Source: Bacillota bacterium (lineage in GTDB: Bacteria > Bacillota > Limnochordia > DTU087). Taken from it: a stretch of 64,000 nucleotides of DNA. The stretch spans positions 1 through 64,000 of the forward strand of contig JAAZMR010000028.1 of NCBI GenBank assembly GCA_012798695.1. The letters are read 5' to 3'. A program made the position numbers and the translations under genes. This document shows positions 21,111 to 29,068 of this stretch, piece after piece; positions within the stretch are counted from its first letter, which is position 1, and each line of letters begins with the position of its first letter. The notes beneath the pieces are model-generated. The model searched no databases, was not told the origin of the DNA, and saw only the letters and a list, made by a program, of their open reading frames with translations.

Positions 21111-21722
21111 CTACTCAAATTCCCAAAGACACCGTTCTCTTAGCTGATTATATACCCTGGCAGCTTGGTAAAAACGCTGGGGCTGTCTCTTAGCCAGCGC
21201 CTCGTCAATCTCCTGCCGCAGCAGGATAATCCAAATGGCTATATCCAACTGTTCTCGGAAAATATCGGCAGTATCTTCGCCCTCTGTCGCGGGCCCAGTC
21301 TCCACCGGCAGGGCCGGGTTGGGTTCTACTACTTCCAGGTACCACTCAGGAACCTCACCGGCAAAGCAAAACTGGGTATAGAGCCTACCCTCAAAATGCC
21401 CTAATGCTTCCCAAGCTTCCATGGGATCATTGAGGCAAAGCCTGCGGGTCCGCTTTACGTGCCGTACCAGCCGACCATTAACCAGGGATACTTCTTCCTG
21501 GCGCCTGGCCCCCAGTTCCAGTTGAAAACCGATCCGTGAGCTTCCCAGTTCCGATACCAGCAAAGTATTGGCCAACATTGTTCTGTTCAGGACAAAAACC
21601 ATCTTCTCCATGAGTTCCTTGTTGTTCAAGAGACGGTGTAAGAACACCTTACTGGATGGATCCTTCAACAACAGTTGGCTAAACTCCAGAATCGCACGTT
21701 GCTTGGCATCCACTTTTCTCAC
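21111..21722 (-). CDS. UPF0302/YpiB-like protein with C-terminal IDEAL domain
   Basis: The protein has about 203 residues. The N-terminal part (AILEFSQLLL..LHRLLNNKELMEKMVFV through GRLYTQF and WYLEVVEPNPALP) follows the UPF0302 pattern known from Bacillus YpiB. The C-terminal LLRQEIDEALAKRQPQRFYQ matches the IDEAL motif, a short helical element seen in a few Bacillota proteins. Bacillus YpiB has been linked to proteolysis of lipopolysaccharide- or respiratory-type targets only loosely, so I give no function. GTG at 21722 is preferred over an ATG at 21782 because AGGAAGG lies six bases before it. Confidence 0.7.
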   Translation of the reverse strand: MRKVDAKQRAILEFSQLLLKDPSSKVFLHRLLNNKELMEKMVFVLNRTMLANTLLVSELGSSRIGFQLELGARRQEEVSLVNGRLVRHVKRTRRLCLNDPMEAWEALGHFEGRLYTQFCFAGEVPEWYLEVVEPNPALPVETGPATEGEDTADIFREQLDIAIWIILLRQEIDEALAKRQPQRFYQAARVYNQLRERCLWEFE

Positions 21723-21987
21723 CCCGGACCTTCCTGGTTTCTCCCTGTTCACTCCATTCTTATGCCCCCATTGGCGTTCCATGAACTAGATATGGGTTCT
21801 AATTTTGCTGTCCCTTCACTAGTTTCTATCATTCCATAGGGATGCTCCAAATTCCTTTCTGAGGACTAGATTGCCCTTGGTATCTAATGGTGAAAGTTCC
21901 AATGACTGTGAGCTTCCCCATCACAACTTCCTGCACCATTTACCATATGATGATATGACAATAAGCCCGTAGTGGGGAGGCCATATC

Positions 21988-23013: not shown

Positions 23014-23042
23014 TTGACACCACCAAATCTCTGGCGTATACT
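23014..23042 (+). promoter_or_regulatory. Strong sigma-A-type promoter of the imuB-DUF6504 unit
   Basis: A perfect TTGACA (23014-23019) is followed by a 17-bp spacer and TATACT (23037-23042). The predicted transcription start falls inside the LexA box just downstream, so repression by blocking polymerase is expected. Confidence 0.85.
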
Positions 23043-23049
23043 CTTTATA

Positions 23050-23063
23050 CGAACAATTGTTTG
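23050..23063. promoter_or_regulatory. LexA (SOS) box
   Basis: CGAACAATTGTTTG matches the Gram-positive LexA consensus CGAAC-N4-GTTYG at every defined position. It starts seven bases after the -10 hexamer and covers the predicted transcription start. This indicates DNA-damage induction of the imuB-DUF6504 unit. Confidence 0.88.
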
Positions 23064-23096
23064 CAAGAAGGTTAGTTCGTCACGGAGGTGGAATAG

Positions 23097-24392
23097 TTGG
23101 TCCCATCAATAGCATACATCCGTTTACACCATTTTTATGCACTATTGGAAGCTAAACACAACCACCGTCTTTGGCAACAGCCCTTTGTGGTTACTCGTGC
23201 CCAGAGGATTATCGATATTTCTCCTCAAGCAGCCAGATTGCATATAACTACTAATATGGGACTGCGCCAGGCTCGCCTTGCTTGTCCTGATTTGCAAATC
23301 ATAGACGCCCAAGCCGATCCTGTACCGGCAGCAGAAAAGTTCTGGGACATCTGTGCCGATCTTACCCCTTTAGTTGAACCAGAAGGCCATAATAGTGCCT
23401 TTTTGGATCTATCCGGTCAGGGAGAACTAACAGCTGTTAGTGAGAACATCATCCACCAGCTTCGTTGGAAATTGGAGTTCCCTTTTCATATAGGCATAGC
23501 TCCCAGCAAGCTGGTAGCTAAAATCGCCTATGGGGAAACAGCTCATCAGCCTACCTCTGTACAACAACCTTTCACTTGGCACCGAGGACGAGGGCAACAC
23601 TCCTCTCCCGTGGAGTTAAAAGGCAATGCAAAGACAAAGATAGCAAACACAGCCCGTTACTGCCTAATCATCCCCCGGACAGCTGTGGAGACATTTTTAG
23701 CACCTTTACCAATAAACCGGTTATGGCTTTGGCCGGATAAAATACATCAGCAGCTGCAAAATCTCGGGATATATACCATTGGTCAGTTGAGACAAGTGCC
23801 AAAGCTGCAGCTGCAAAAGCAGCTAGGTGAGGCCGGAGAGCAACTCTATGATGCAGCTCGGGGTATAGATCACACTAGTGTGCAAGGTGTTTATCCACCT
23901 GAGGCAATCCAAACTTATTTTCAACTACCACCTGAAGTAGAGGGATATGAAAGCTGGGAGGCATTAACTATCCATCTACTGCCCTTAATCGAAAGTGCGG
24001 TCACCGACTTGCAAAGACAGGCTAAAGCCTGCACCCGCTTGCGATTATTGGTTCAATACGATACCTTGCCTGAACAGTGTTGGGATAAGTCGTTCAAAGA
24101 TGAATTGCAAACCGCAAACCAGTTTCTACAGGCAATTAAGGGCCTATTGACCCAGAAAGCCTGGCCTGCCCCCATCACAGGTATACGTTTAATGTTAATG
24201 GGGCTCAAACCAGCATCTTTAGGGCAACTGCGTTTTGCCTCTCAAATTTTCGGGGCCCAACACCAGCGGGAGTTGCAGCAAATCCTATCCTCACTGCAGG
24301 CCCGATTCGGAGCCAATAGTATCTTTGTGGCTGCGGATATCTCTATCCCTCGTCGGGAAAGGATGTTACAGCTTTTGGCAAACCATCAATGA
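23097..24392 (+). CDS. imuB: ImuB-type Y-family DNA polymerase homologue, catalytic residues lost
   Basis: This 431-residue protein has the Y-family layout: palm/fingers (1-200), a helix-hairpin-helix thumb (about 219-245, LGIYTIGQLRQVPK), little finger and a C-terminal tail. Active Y-family enzymes need Asp residues in a DxD-like start and a DE pair. Here the start is YIRLHHFYALLE with Arg9 and His11, and the DE pair is replaced by Asn99-Ser100 before AFLDLSG. Loss of these acids is the mark of ImuB, which works as an adaptor joining the sliding clamp to DnaE2/ImuC. GQLRFA (376-381) lies where a clamp-binding motif is expected. The start is TTG with GGAGGTG six bases upstream. It is driven by a LexA-box promoter; a DUF6504-like gene follows 46 bp later. 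Confidence 0.82.
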   Translation: MVPSIAYIRLHHFYALLEAKHNHRLWQQPFVVTRAQRIIDISPQAARLHITTNMGLRQARLACPDLQIIDAQADPVPAAEKFWDICADLTPLVEPEGHNSAFLDLSGQGELTAVSENIIHQLRWKLEFPFHIGIAPSKLVAKIAYGETAHQPTSVQQPFTWHRGRGQHSSPVELKGNAKTKIANTARYCLIIPRTAVETFLAPLPINRLWLWPDKIHQQLQNLGIYTIGQLRQVPKLQLQKQLGEAGEQLYDAARGIDHTSVQGVYPPEAIQTYFQLPPEVEGYESWEALTIHLLPLIESAVTDLQRQAKACTRLRLLVQYDTLPEQCWDKSFKDELQTANQFLQAIKGLLTQKAWPAPITGIRLMLMGLKPASLGQLRFASQIFGAQHQRELQQILSSLQARFGANSIFVAADISIPRRERMLQLLANHQ

Positions 24393-24438
24393 TCAGCTAT
24401 CAAACTAGGAGGCCATTAGGAGATAGGAGGCAACCATT

Positions 24439-24681
24439 TTGGCCCGTCGTATCAATACATCTATCCAGGTTACTTGTCAAGGGGGGCAGCCCATTGCTTT
24501 TTTCTGGGGAGAGCAATTCCATACTATTGCTCGGATCATTGACAGCTGGAGGGAAAGCGGTGAATGGTGGGAAAAAGCCCCAGAAATAACGGTTTATCAG
24601 GTCCTAACCGATACTCAGGGGCTCTATGAACTCCACCACCAAGCTACTGGTCAGTGGCTGTTGTATAAAATCTATGATTAA
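24439..24681 (+). CDS. Small DUF6504-like protein linked to imuB
   Basis: This 80-residue protein is rich in Trp and Tyr. The pattern (basic start, FFWGEQFHTIARIIDSWRE, EWWEK, YQVLTD.QGLYELHHQATGQWLLYKIYD) is that of the domain I recall as DUF6504, found beside Y-family/DnaE2 polymerase genes in other bacteria. No enzyme motif is present. A beta-rich nucleic-acid- or protein-binding fold is a guess. The TTG start has GGAGG eight bases upstream, and it should be co-transcribed with imuB from the LexA-controlled promoter. It may take the place of ImuA-type partners (inference). Confidence 0.7.
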   Translation: MARRINTSIQVTCQGGQPIAFFWGEQFHTIARIIDSWRESGEWWEKAPEITVYQVLTDTQGLYELHHQATGQWLLYKIYD

Positions 24682-24697
24682 GGTTCTGATTCACTAT

Positions 24698-25726
24698 CTA
24701 AGACTTAAGTAAAGGCAAGAGGCCAAGCCTATCCTGGAACTGTTCCAAAGTAGGTAAAGCCAACGGTTCGGCCTTCGCCCTTCCCTGAGCCAGGATCTCT
24801 TCAATCACCCCGGGGCAAGAAAGCTCCTTAAAGCGCTCTTGAATGGGGCTCAAGGTCTCTACTACAACCTCAGCCAAATCCTTTTTGAACTGACCATAGC
24901 CACTGCCTGCATAATGATCCCGGATCTCTTCTAAGGACTGATCAGAGCAAAGGGAATAAATGACCATCAAGTTAGAAATGGCCGGTTTGTTTTCTTCATC
25001 GTAATATACTTCCCGTCCCGAGTCAGTGACCGCTGAGCGGATTTTTTGCCGGATCACATCGGGCGGATCGAGTATGGCAATATTCCCCCGGGGATTCTCT
25101 GCAGACTTGGACATCTTTTCGGTAGGATCTTGTAGGTTCATGATCCGGCCACCAGCGATCTTGGGTGGAATATATGGCTCGGGTACTTTAAAGACTTCTT
25201 CATCGAACCGGTTGTTGACTCGGATAGCTATATCCCGGGCCAGCTCCAAATGCTGTTTTTGATCTTCTCCCACCGGGACTTCATCGGTCTGGTAGAGGAG
25301 GATATCAGCTGCCATCAATACTGGATAAGTAAATAGGCCCGAGGTGACTACTTCTTGTTTTGCTGATTTGTCCTTGTACTGGGTCATACGCCGCAATTCG
25401 CCCACGTAAGTACTGCATTCCAGCAGCCAACTCAGCTCGGCATGAGCCGGTACGTGGGATTGAATAAAGATAGTCGCCTGTTCGGGATCAATACCACATG
25501 CCACAAAGAGTCTAGCGACATCTAGTGTCCGCTGATAGAGCTCTTTGGGATCCTGAGGGACTGTTAAAGCATGTAGATCTACTACACAAAAAAGACATTC
25601 TGCTTCATGCTGTAATTTGGCGAAATTCCGTAAGGCTCCAAGATAATTACCAATGGTTAGGGAGCCGCTGGGTTGTACACCAGAGAAAACTCGTTTTGTG
25701 ACCATGATGCGCGGTGCCGGTAACAT
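24698..25726 (-). CDS. trpS: Tryptophanyl-tRNA synthetase
   Basis: This class I aminoacyl-tRNA synthetase of about 342 residues charges tRNA-Trp. The HIGH-type motif is PSGSLTIGNYLG near residue 18 and KMSKS occurs as EKMSKSAENPRG. Conserved QYKDKSAKQ and VPVGEDQKQHLELARDIA segments are present. AAAGGTG lies about ten bases before the ATG at 25726; a later ATG at 25705 starts nearer the conserved VFSGVQPSG. It sits on the opposite strand between imuB-DUF6504 and dnaE2. No convincing T-box leader precedes it; the upstream gap is only 168 bp. Confidence 0.95.
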   Translation of the reverse strand: MLPAPRIMVTKRVFSGVQPSGSLTIGNYLGALRNFAKLQHEAECLFCVVDLHALTVPQDPKELYQRTLDVARLFVACGIDPEQATIFIQSHVPAHAELSWLLECSTYVGELRRMTQYKDKSAKQEVVTSGLFTYPVLMAADILLYQTDEVPVGEDQKQHLELARDIAIRVNNRFDEEVFKVPEPYIPPKIAGGRIMNLQDPTEKMSKSAENPRGNIAILDPPDVIRQKIRSAVTDSGREVYYDEENKPAISNLMVIYSLCSDQSLEEIRDHYAGSGYGQFKKDLAEVVVETLSPIQERFKELSCPGVIEEILAQGRAKAEPLALPTLEQFQDRLGLLPLLKS

Positions 25727-25894: not shown

Positions 25895-28800
25895 GTGGCC
25901 TTTATCCATCTTCATGTCCATTCGCCCTTTTCTTTTCTCGATGGGGCCAGCTCTATACCTACCTTGGTACAACGGGCTGCAGAGCTCGGAGCAGCAGCAC
26001 TGGCTCTTACTGATCATAATAATGTCAGTGCCACCGTCCAGTTTTACAAAATAGCGATGGCGGCTGGAATTAAGCCAATTCAAGGAGCGGAGCTCACCTT
26101 AGAAAATAGCCATCATTTGATCTGCCTAGCGCAAAACCCGACGGGCTATGCCAATCTCTGTCAGCTGCTAACTATTGCTTATCAATACGGCAATCGATTA
26201 AATCCTCGGGTTCCTCTGTCGGCTTTGGCCCAATACCGGCAAGATTTGATCTTTCTATCCGGCTGCCGCCGAGGGGAAGTGCCCTACTTGATTCTCCACG
26301 GAGAGTCTAGTACTGCCCGAGATGCTGCTAAGCGTTACCTGGAAATCATCGGGCGGGATAACTTCTACATAGAGTTGATTGCCGATTTGCTGCCTTATAC
26401 CGACCAACTAAATACTGCCCTAGTGGAGCTAGCAGCAGATCTGAGAATAAAGGTAGTAGCCACCAATAATGTGCATTATGCCTATAAACAGGATTTCCCT
26501 TTACACGATACTTTTACCTGCATTCGCACCCTGACTCAACTGGAGGACGTCCATCTTGAGCGGCGTCTGAATGCAGAAAATTACCTAAAATCACCGGCAG
26601 AAATGGCAGAGCTCCTCACTGCTTATCCGGAAGCCGTAGCAACTACCCAGGAGATCGCCAACCGCTGTCAACCGGTTTTGGATTTGAAAAGACACCTTTT
26701 CCCCGCTTTTCCCACTCCTCCTGGTTTATCTTCTGCTGCTTACTTAAGGAAACTCACCTACCAAGGGGCAGTTAAACGCTATGGGACTATTACCCCCCCT
26801 ATTGGGCAGAGGTTAGAACATGAGCTAGAGATCATTACCCGCTTGCAGGTTGAAGACTACTTTCTAGTTATGTGGGATATTGCTTGTTTTGCCCAGAAGC
26901 GGGGAATTCGCTATGCCGGCCGAGGTTCAGCCGCGGATTCGGCAGTGGTCTATTGCCTGCAAATCACTGAAGTCGATGCCATCGCCCGAGGACTTTTATT
27001 CGAGCGTTTTCTCAGTCTAGAGCGGGCTCAAAAACCGGACATCGACATAGATTTTGATGCCCGTTACCGGGACGCAATAGCCCGCTATGTGTATGATAAA
27101 TACGGTCAGGGATATGTAGCTTCGGTTTGTACATTTAACACTTTTCGCGCCCGATCTGCCTTGAGGGATTTCGGCAAAGCACTGGGCTTTCCGCCAGAGG
27201 AAGTCAATAGCTTAGCTAAACGCTTTCCCCACATACCGGCTGATGCCATACAACAGGCACTAGTCAAATTCCCTGAGATCCGCAAAAGCTCTATACCAAT
27301 TTGGAAATATCAGCAGCTCTTTCAGCTTTGTGAGCAGGCAGCTGGGTTTCCTCGATTTATTGGTACTCATCTCGGAGGGTTAGTTATCTGTCGAGAACCT
27401 TTAGCAACTGTCACCCCTCTACAAGAGGCGGCCAAGGGAGTGTTAATTACCCAATTTGATAAAGACGACATTGAAGACCTCGGACTCATTAAACTTGATT
27501 TATTATCTTTACGCACTCTGTCTGCAGTAGAAGATACGGTGGTTTCTATCAATATCCAGGCTCATCAAGCCAATTCCCCTAGTTTTTGCTACGAGGATAT
27601 TCCCTTAGATGATCCTGCCACCTACCAACGCCTCAACTCGGGGAAGACTATTGATGCCTTCCAACTGGAAAGCCCCGCTCAAAGAGCTTTACAAGCTCGC
27701 CTAAACGCCAATCACATGGAGGACATTATTGCCAGTGTGGCATTGATCCGACCTGGTCCCATTCAAGGCAATATGGTAGAACCATTTATCGCCCGTCGAC
27801 ACGGCCAAGAAAAGATTACCTATATACATCCTGCTTTGGAACCGATTCTAGCCAAGACCTATGGTGTTGTCTTGTATCAAGAACAGGTGATTGAGATCGC
27901 CACAACTATTGCCGGTTTTTCCCCAGGGGAATCTGACCGGTTGCGCAGAGTCATGACCCATTTTCGTTCTCAAAAAGAAATGGATGCCATTGGCGAAGAA
28001 TTTATAACTAAAGCTGTTACCAATGGCGTGGAGCCCGAAGTAGCTAAGACCATTTTTTCGTATATAGTAGGTTATGCCGGTTATGGATTTTGTGAAGCCC
28101 ACGCTGCAGCTTTCGGGGATACTGCATATAAGACTAGCTATCTTCTGGAACACTATCCAGCTCATTTCTATGCAGCCATTCTCAGTAATCAACCCATGGG
28201 TTTTTATCCACCCAATACCATCTGTTTAGAAGCCCGCCGGCGGAATATACCTATTTTGCCCCCGGACATCAATATCAGTATGGAGAGGTTTACTGTAGAA
28301 GAGCTGCTGCCAGATAACACACCCCATGGCCACCTAACAAGTCCGAGACTTGCCATCCGGGTATCTCTAGCCCAAATAGCCAAAATGGATAGGGAATCAG
28401 TGCAGACAATCCTAGTGCAAAGGTCTAAAGAGCCTTATCGCTCCCTTCTAGACTTTTGCCAGCGTACACATCTAGATAAAGACATTACCACCAATTTAAT
28501 ACTCTGCGGAGCCTTTGATCAGCTCCACCCCAACCGGCGTCAATTGCTGTGGGATCTGGGCAAGTTCCAGGAACTTTTTACCCGGCAGTATCAGCCTTCA
28601 CTGTTTTTGAGAGGGGCACCGGAGCTTCTCCAGGAAAGCAGCTCCTATCAGGTACCAGATTTCTCCTCTAGGGAGAAGTTCCTGCAAGAATACTCTGTGC
28701 TGGGGCTTAATGCTAGCACCCATCTGATGGCATTTTTGCGGCCCTATTTGGAACACCGCCGAGTGGCAGATAGTCGCCAGTTAGAGCAAATCCCTCCCGC

Positions 28801-29068
28801 AAAAAACGTATGTGCTGCCGGGATCGTAATTAGGCCACATCGGCCCCCTACAAAAAGTGGCCGGACTGTGGTCTTCCTTACTCTAGAAGATGAGTTTGGC
28901 ATGATCGATGTTACTATTTTTGAGGATGTCTACCAGAAATACGGGCATATCATCTTTACGGAACCAGCCTTGATTGTCTGGGGGAAATTGGAGCAGAGGG
29001 GAAATGCCAAAAGCATCACGGCTAGGCGGGTCGAAGCACTGCCACTAGCCACCGCCTGGCAAGGGTAA
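25895..29068 (+). CDS. dnaE2: Error-prone DNA polymerase III alpha subunit, DnaE2/ImuC type
   Basis: This 1057-residue C-family polymerase has the length of DnaE2. The PHP domain opens the protein (FIHLHVHSPFSFLDG). Palm motifs include GRGSAADSAVVYCL and the catalytic aspartates in PDIDIDFD. A helix-hairpin-helix region and an OB-fold (TVVFLTLEDEFGMIDVTIFEDVY) follow, ending with IVWGKLEQRGNAKSITARRVE. The segment NQPMGFYPPNTICLEARRRNIPILPPDIN is characteristic of DnaE2 rather than replicative DnaE1. GTG at 25895 has GAGGTG seven bases upstream. It probably performs damage-induced mutagenic synthesis with the ImuB homologue encoded 1.5 kb upstream, although trpS on the other strand separates the two units. 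Confidence 0.87.
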   Translation: MAFIHLHVHSPFSFLDGASSIPTLVQRAAELGAAALALTDHNNVSATVQFYKIAMAAGIKPIQGAELTLENSHHLICLAQNPTGYANLCQLLTIAYQYGNRLNPRVPLSALAQYRQDLIFLSGCRRGEVPYLILHGESSTARDAAKRYLEIIGRDNFYIELIADLLPYTDQLNTALVELAADLRIKVVATNNVHYAYKQDFPLHDTFTCIRTLTQLEDVHLERRLNAENYLKSPAEMAELLTAYPEAVATTQEIANRCQPVLDLKRHLFPAFPTPPGLSSAAYLRKLTYQGAVKRYGTITPPIGQRLEHELEIITRLQVEDYFLVMWDIACFAQKRGIRYAGRGSAADSAVVYCLQITEVDAIARGLLFERFLSLERAQKPDIDIDFDARYRDAIARYVYDKYGQGYVASVCTFNTFRARSALRDFGKALGFPPEEVNSLAKRFPHIPADAIQQALVKFPEIRKSSIPIWKYQQLFQLCEQAAGFPRFIGTHLGGLVICREPLATVTPLQEAAKGVLITQFDKDDIEDLGLIKLDLLSLRTLSAVEDTVVSINIQAHQANSPSFCYEDIPLDDPATYQRLNSGKTIDAFQLESPAQRALQARLNANHMEDIIASVALIRPGPIQGNMVEPFIARRHGQEKITYIHPALEPILAKTYGVVLYQEQVIEIATTIAGFSPGESDRLRRVMTHFRSQKEMDAIGEEFITKAVTNGVEPEVAKTIFSYIVGYAGYGFCEAHAAAFGDTAYKTSYLLEHYPAHFYAAILSNQPMGFYPPNTICLEARRRNIPILPPDINISMERFTVEELLPDNTPHGHLTSPRLAIRVSLAQIAKMDRESVQTILVQRSKEPYRSLLDFCQRTHLDKDITTNLILCGAFDQLHPNRRQLLWDLGKFQELFTRQYQPSLFLRGAPELLQESSSYQVPDFSSREKFLQEYSVLGLNASTHLMAFLRPYLEHRRVADSRQLEQIPPAKNVCAAGIVIRPHRPPTKSGRTVVFLTLEDEFGMIDVTIFEDVYQKYGHIIFTEPALIVWGKLEQRGNAKSITARRVEALPLATAWQG

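Follow-up and report, generated by a model that had tools for sequence, protein, structure and literature searches.

A standalone ImuB-C protein of the DUF6504 family as a probable subunit of an SOS-induced, ImuA-less mutasome in a Bacillota bacterium

Results

Organization of the imuY-imuB-C locus

The window, meaning the whole 64,000-nucleotide stretch of DNA analysed here, carries a small gene, imuB-C, together with the following features.

23014..23042, + strand: sigma-70-like promoter TTGACA-17-TATACT of the imuY-imuB-C unit (consensus scan, 11/12 matches)
23050..23063, + strand: LexA (SOS) box CGAACAATTGTTTG (exact pattern match)
23066..23079, + strand: second, weaker LexA-like box AGAAGGTTAGTTCG (2 mismatches to CGAAC-N4-GTTCG)
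23097..24392, + strand: inactive Y-family polymerase of the ImuY / iPolY type (Pfam IMS and IMS_C)
24225..24239, + strand: candidate beta-clamp binding motif QLRFA, ImuY residues 377-381 (translation)
24261..24323, + strand: RecA-NT-like motif HQRELQQILSSLQARFGANSI of ImuY
24425..24430, + strand: ribosome-binding site AGGAGG of imuB-C (sequence)
24439..24681, + strand: imuB-C, standalone ImuB-C of 80 aa (Pfam DUF6504; match to the ImuB C-terminus profile; D. deserti ImuB-C; AlphaFold2)
24698..25726, - strand: trpS, between imuB-C and dnaE2
25895..29068, + strand: DnaE2-type C-family polymerase of 1057 aa (Pfam, NCBIfam, identity and tree)

The imuB-C reading frame of 80 residues is co-oriented with the Y-family gene, from whose end at 24392 it is separated by 46 bp, and begins with a TTG start codon 8 nt downstream of the AGGAGG motif. 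An earlier note on this DNA had described such a frame with a good ribosome site and had called its product Trp/Tyr-rich; the sequence bears out both points, the protein containing 5 Trp and 4 Tyr in its 80 residues. The note's assignment to DUF6504 also held, as the Pfam HMM PF20114 matched residues 4-79 with 37.9 bits (E 2.2e-9) against a gathering cut-off of 24.2 bits, while no NCBIfam model matched the protein. Full-length copies, 66-86% identical, were identified in 11 relatives from named MAGs by a search that used the single window protein as query and reached close relatives only. Since these relatives retain the full length, and residues W37, W44, W73 and D80 are invariant across 46 homologues, imuB-C is considered a real gene.

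DUF6504 corresponds to the ImuB-C domain

A DUF6504 profile built from 46 polymerase-linked proteins was run against 13 ImuB sequences of proteobacteria, taken from plasmid records. In hhalign it aligned to residues 410-503 of the 503 of ImuB, that is the ~95 C-terminal residues, with a probability of 97.5 and an E-value, for this one profile-ImuB comparison, of 5.6e-12, whereas the reversed and 20 column-shuffled DUF6504 profiles used as controls gave probabilities of at most 1.4. The Pfam DUF6504 model itself matched the ImuB C-termini of A. vitis (E 0.002) and P. yeei (E 0.004), both below the cut-off, and gave no match, at the limit used, to the Y-family proteins of T. roseum, Rhodanobacter, Kitasatospora and Manganitrophus. 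The most direct link between DUF6504 and ImuB-C is provided by Deinococcus deserti. The imuY-imuB-C-dnaE2 cassette of Deinococcus contains an ImuB-C gene of 80 residues between imuY and dnaE2 (PMC8072749), and on plasmid 1 of D. deserti the gene located between the Y-family gene and dnaE encodes 80 aa and is annotated as a "DUF6504 family protein", the published locus tag Deide_1p01890 having been matched to the record through gene order and not through the old tag. This D. deserti ImuB-C scores above the DUF6504 cut-off and matches the 46-protein profile with 99.2% probability. Thus, as judged from sequence comparison, the DUF6504 family is the ImuB-C domain.

The AlphaFold2 model of the imuB-C protein is almost all-beta, with seven strands (pLDDT 90, pTM 0.77), and a Foldseek search of this model against the PDB returned no relative at E<=0.001. 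Both observations agree with the published description of ImuB-C as a beta-barrel without close PDB relatives. The characteristic trait of the ImuB-C superfamily, a beta-rich domain with a conserved C-terminal Trp, is present, as W73 is invariant in the 46 sequences.

The ImuB-C domain was named in 2013, in fused or standalone form (PMC3765255, Aravind et al. 2013), and it is included in the complex of inactive PolY, ImuB-C, DnaE2 and RecA reported in 2019 and 2026 (PMC6511836, PMC12926913). The earlier proposal that the 80-residue protein is a candidate new mutasome component therefore falls, because the same family has been in print since 2013; placing DUF6504 as an unassigned component is ruled out by the profile alignment and by the D. 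deserti gene. The protein is a clear further example of a published family and no discovery. The name DUF6504 was not found in the literature searched, and a family of "unknown function" is now tied to the ImuB-C literature.

The upstream gene encodes an inactive Y-family polymerase

In the upstream protein the catalytic D-D-E residues of Y-family polymerases are replaced by R-N-S. Among the 44 linked Y-family proteins, three had no residue aligned at these sites, and the full catalytic triad was found in none of the 41 that could be assessed. The QLRFA motif occupies the position of the QLxLF-type motifs of relatives. Closer to the C-terminus, HQRELQQILSSLQARFGANSI resembles, by eye, LKALDMALHQIEKQFGKGAI at the N terminus of the RecA of the same genome, and is a candidate for the RecA-NT motif defined in PMC6511836. 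ImuY ends at residue 431, just past this region, and has no fused ImuB-C. As ImuB-C is a separate gene here, the upstream protein is of the ImuY/iPolY type, and the earlier designation "imuB" has to be given up as far as a classical ImuB is meant. A 677-aa frame in genome G190, considered as a possible fusion, was dismissed as a long stop-to-stop frame, ImuY lying in a different frame.

Searching the genome with an ImuA model gave sub-cut-off matches only, the best being recA itself, plus one weak match. The same genome also encodes another DnaE, a PolC-like C-family protein, an active-type DinB, one RecA and one LexA.

Putative SOS control of imuY and imuB-C

Promoter-like matches across the whole region were not above shuffles, and the promoter call at 23014-23042 rests on its position immediately 5' of the LexA box. 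This box, CGAACAATTGTTTG, is conserved in 10/10 clade loci with upstream DNA, is found in identical form just 5' of recA and has a similar counterpart 5' of lexA in the same genome; a box spaced similarly to the second one, AGAAGGTTAGTTCG, is present in 10 relatives. Across the phylum, a LexA box (<=1 mismatch, within 300 bp) precedes 35 of 43 linked Y-family genes, which, including several close relatives, do not represent 43 independent events, compared with 2.9% of random 300-base stretches from the same loci. Exact LexA patterns number 6 genome-wide and are not above the reversed-pattern control (15), so the claim of SOS control rests on where the boxes lie (recA, lexA and imuY) and on their conservation. 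The DNA-damage control predicted earlier is in this way supported, the conserved boxes at 23050 and 23066, of a type common to recA and lexA, pointing to LexA as the probable repressor of the unit.

DnaE2 is separated from imuB-C by trpS

The window DnaE2 is 51-58% identical to most linked DnaE2s and 34% identical to the other DnaE of the genome. In a tree whose long branches leave the deeper order unsure, most linked DnaE2s fall into a single clade (100/100), separate from the genome's other DnaE. A second clade (100/100) comprises the DnaE2s of four loci (L056, L058, L070 and L074) where DUF6504 lies directly 5' of dnaE2 with no Y-family gene nearby. On the megaplasmid of Thermomicrobium roseum (L125:2703-4974), three genes in a row encode a RecA-like protein, a Y-family-like protein that is shortened and in which no DUF6504 domain was detected, and an error-prone polymerase. 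Among plasmid-encoded relatives of the window DnaE2, this polymerase is the closest.

The trpS gene is convergent to imuB-C and divergent from dnaE2, an order maintained in all relatives of the clade with contigs that extend as far as trpS. Since it intervenes, dnaE2 does not belong to the imuB-C operon here. A LexA box upstream of dnaE2 was sought in this clade and was not found; with trpS between the genes, DnaE2 is probably transcribed on its own, and the adaptor half, imuY-imuB-C, is alone visibly SOS-controlled in this clade. One tentative possibility is that the mutasome of the clade has been rewired, with DnaE2 made without SOS control and SOS-induced ImuY and ImuB-C alone forming the switch by which it is brought to sites of damage. 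The same arrangement would also suit a cassette in decay, in which dnaE2 has left SOS control and ImuY and ImuB-C no longer work with DnaE2, and ImuY does diverge faster (44-75% identity) than DnaE2 (73-85%). Such decay is highly improbable, since imuY, imuB-C and dnaE2 remain undisrupted and in one locus in the clade, and since 10/10 relatives with upstream DNA retain both LexA boxes.

That imuB-C stays with imuY while dnaE2 is separated, and that a small-subunit gene adjoins an SOS-controlled Y-family gene, recall yqjX/yolD and would fit a UmuD/YolD-like regulatory subunit that inserts into and controls ImuY, binding to DnaE2 being secondary. A catalytically dead ImuY has no polymerase activity that such a subunit could control, the barrel published for ImuB-C is unlike the SH3 barrel of UmuD'/YqjX, and the four loci combining DUF6504 with DnaE2 have no Y gene nearby, making a role of this kind quite unlikely.

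Gene neighbourhood of DUF6504 copies

Among 77 DUF6504 copies taken, with their flanking sequence, from genomes of this phylum, 49 had a Y-family gene, a DnaE2 gene or both as neighbours. These 49 came from as many different genomes, and the neighbouring genes were nearly always co-oriented and about 20-110 bp away. The remaining 28 were not near such genes, and truly have no Y-family gene in the stretch searched, since the same profile recovers the genome's active DinB at 200 bits. The linkage to imuB and dnaE2 suggested by the earlier note is thus conserved (49/77), whereas a shared operon with dnaE2 is precluded in the window by trpS. An SOS-controlled DnaE2 mutasome devoid of ImuA is widespread in this phylum.

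Comparison with known mutasome cassettes

The Deinococcus cassette (D. deserti NC_012527) is similar to that of the window in that an 80-aa DUF6504/ImuB-C protein is encoded downstream of an inactive Y-family gene, DnaE2 is present, control is by LexA and ImuA is missing. In contrast with D. deserti, the window cassette has no lexA gene and its dnaE2 is set apart by trpS; the two ImuB-C proteins are 28% identical. The DnaE2X-iPolY-ImuB-C-RecA module of the Kyrpidia tusciae type (PMC6511836, PMC12926913) resembles the window in its described composition, sharing an inactive PolY, whose RecA-NT motif has a candidate counterpart in the window, a standalone ImuB-C, DnaE2 and, probably, RecA in place of ImuA, and the window DnaE2 is presumably a DnaE2X member. 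With the ImuA-ImuB-DnaE2 mutasome of Mycobacterium, Caulobacter and Agrobacterium the window shares the inactive PolY, putative RecA-NT and ImuB-C elements, the DnaE2 partner and SOS control, but here ImuB-C is a separate protein and ImuA is absent. The window holds a Bacillota version of the cassette, with an SOS promoter, an inactive PolY bearing a RecA-NT-like motif, a standalone ImuB-C and DnaE2, that is ordinary in kind, well supported and has a modest regulatory twist.

Proposed role of the standalone ImuB-C

Very probably, imuB-C encodes a standalone beta-barrel protein that belongs to an SOS-induced mutasome without ImuA, composed of ImuY, ImuB-C and DnaE2, with RecA probably replacing ImuA. 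Its most likely role is that of a beta-barrel adaptor docking DnaE2 onto an inactive PolY-RecA platform, for which the published support is modelling. On DNA damage, LexA would leave the two promoter boxes and ImuY and ImuB-C would be co-produced. ImuY cannot polymerise; its C terminus would bind RecA and, probably, the beta clamp as well. As a separate chain, ImuB-C would do the job of the ImuB tail by sitting on ImuY/RecA and binding the PHP domain of DnaE2, and these contacts would bring the error-prone polymerase to the stalled fork. It is in this sense that we infer assembly of the complex, contacts with RecA and DnaE2, and mutagenesis. Published AlphaFold complexes predict ImuB-C on the PHP domain of DnaE2, consistent with the bridging role suggested in the earlier note, and UV mutagenesis in D. 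deserti needs imuY and dnaE2 (PMC8072749). In M. smegmatis, ImuA' was still bound after removal of ImuB-C from ImuB, and RecA-NT, not ImuB-C, proved critical for ImuA' binding by experiment. The splitting-off of dnaE2 in the clade, with no LexA box, counts against the adaptor reading, and the fold alone is no proof of the role, as 28 of the 77 DUF6504 copies lie away from polymerase genes.

A different function, the DNA binding that the note also suggested, corresponds to the proposal made in 2013 on the basis of gene neighbourhoods containing Ku, ligase and photolyase (PMC3765255). ImuB-C would then serve chiefly to bind DNA or recognise damage and so to guide the polymerase to lesions, with no protein-protein bridge. 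This function would suit a small, beta-rich, aromatic domain, many copies of which do not adjoin DnaE2; it is nevertheless rather unlikely, given the modelled placement of ImuB-C on the DnaE2 PHP domain and invariant residues that are mostly Trp, with no basic patch. As regards the adaptor role, no direct test of a standalone ImuB-C was found in the literature searched, and the split form, in which removal of ImuB-C leaves the polymerase-like subunit unaltered, would make it directly testable.

Additional DUF6504 copies and neighbouring genes

The same genome encodes a second, divergent DUF6504 protein (58.6 bits; L098:2984-3313, corresponding to G000:C58:2996-3280, - strand), which is not near polymerase genes; its vicinity includes genes for an ABC-F-like protein and for a UvrD-like helicase-exonuclease. 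A DUF6504 subfamily with an RRHRNYYRV-like motif (L049, L053, L059, L062, L086, L105, L108, L112, L113 and L116) is not located beside Y-family/DnaE2 genes and has no obvious conserved neighbour; its genomes often also carry a polymerase-linked DUF6504 copy. Elsewhere in the window, the product of 21111-21782 displays UPF0302 and weak IDEAL matches and resembles ReoY-family proteins.
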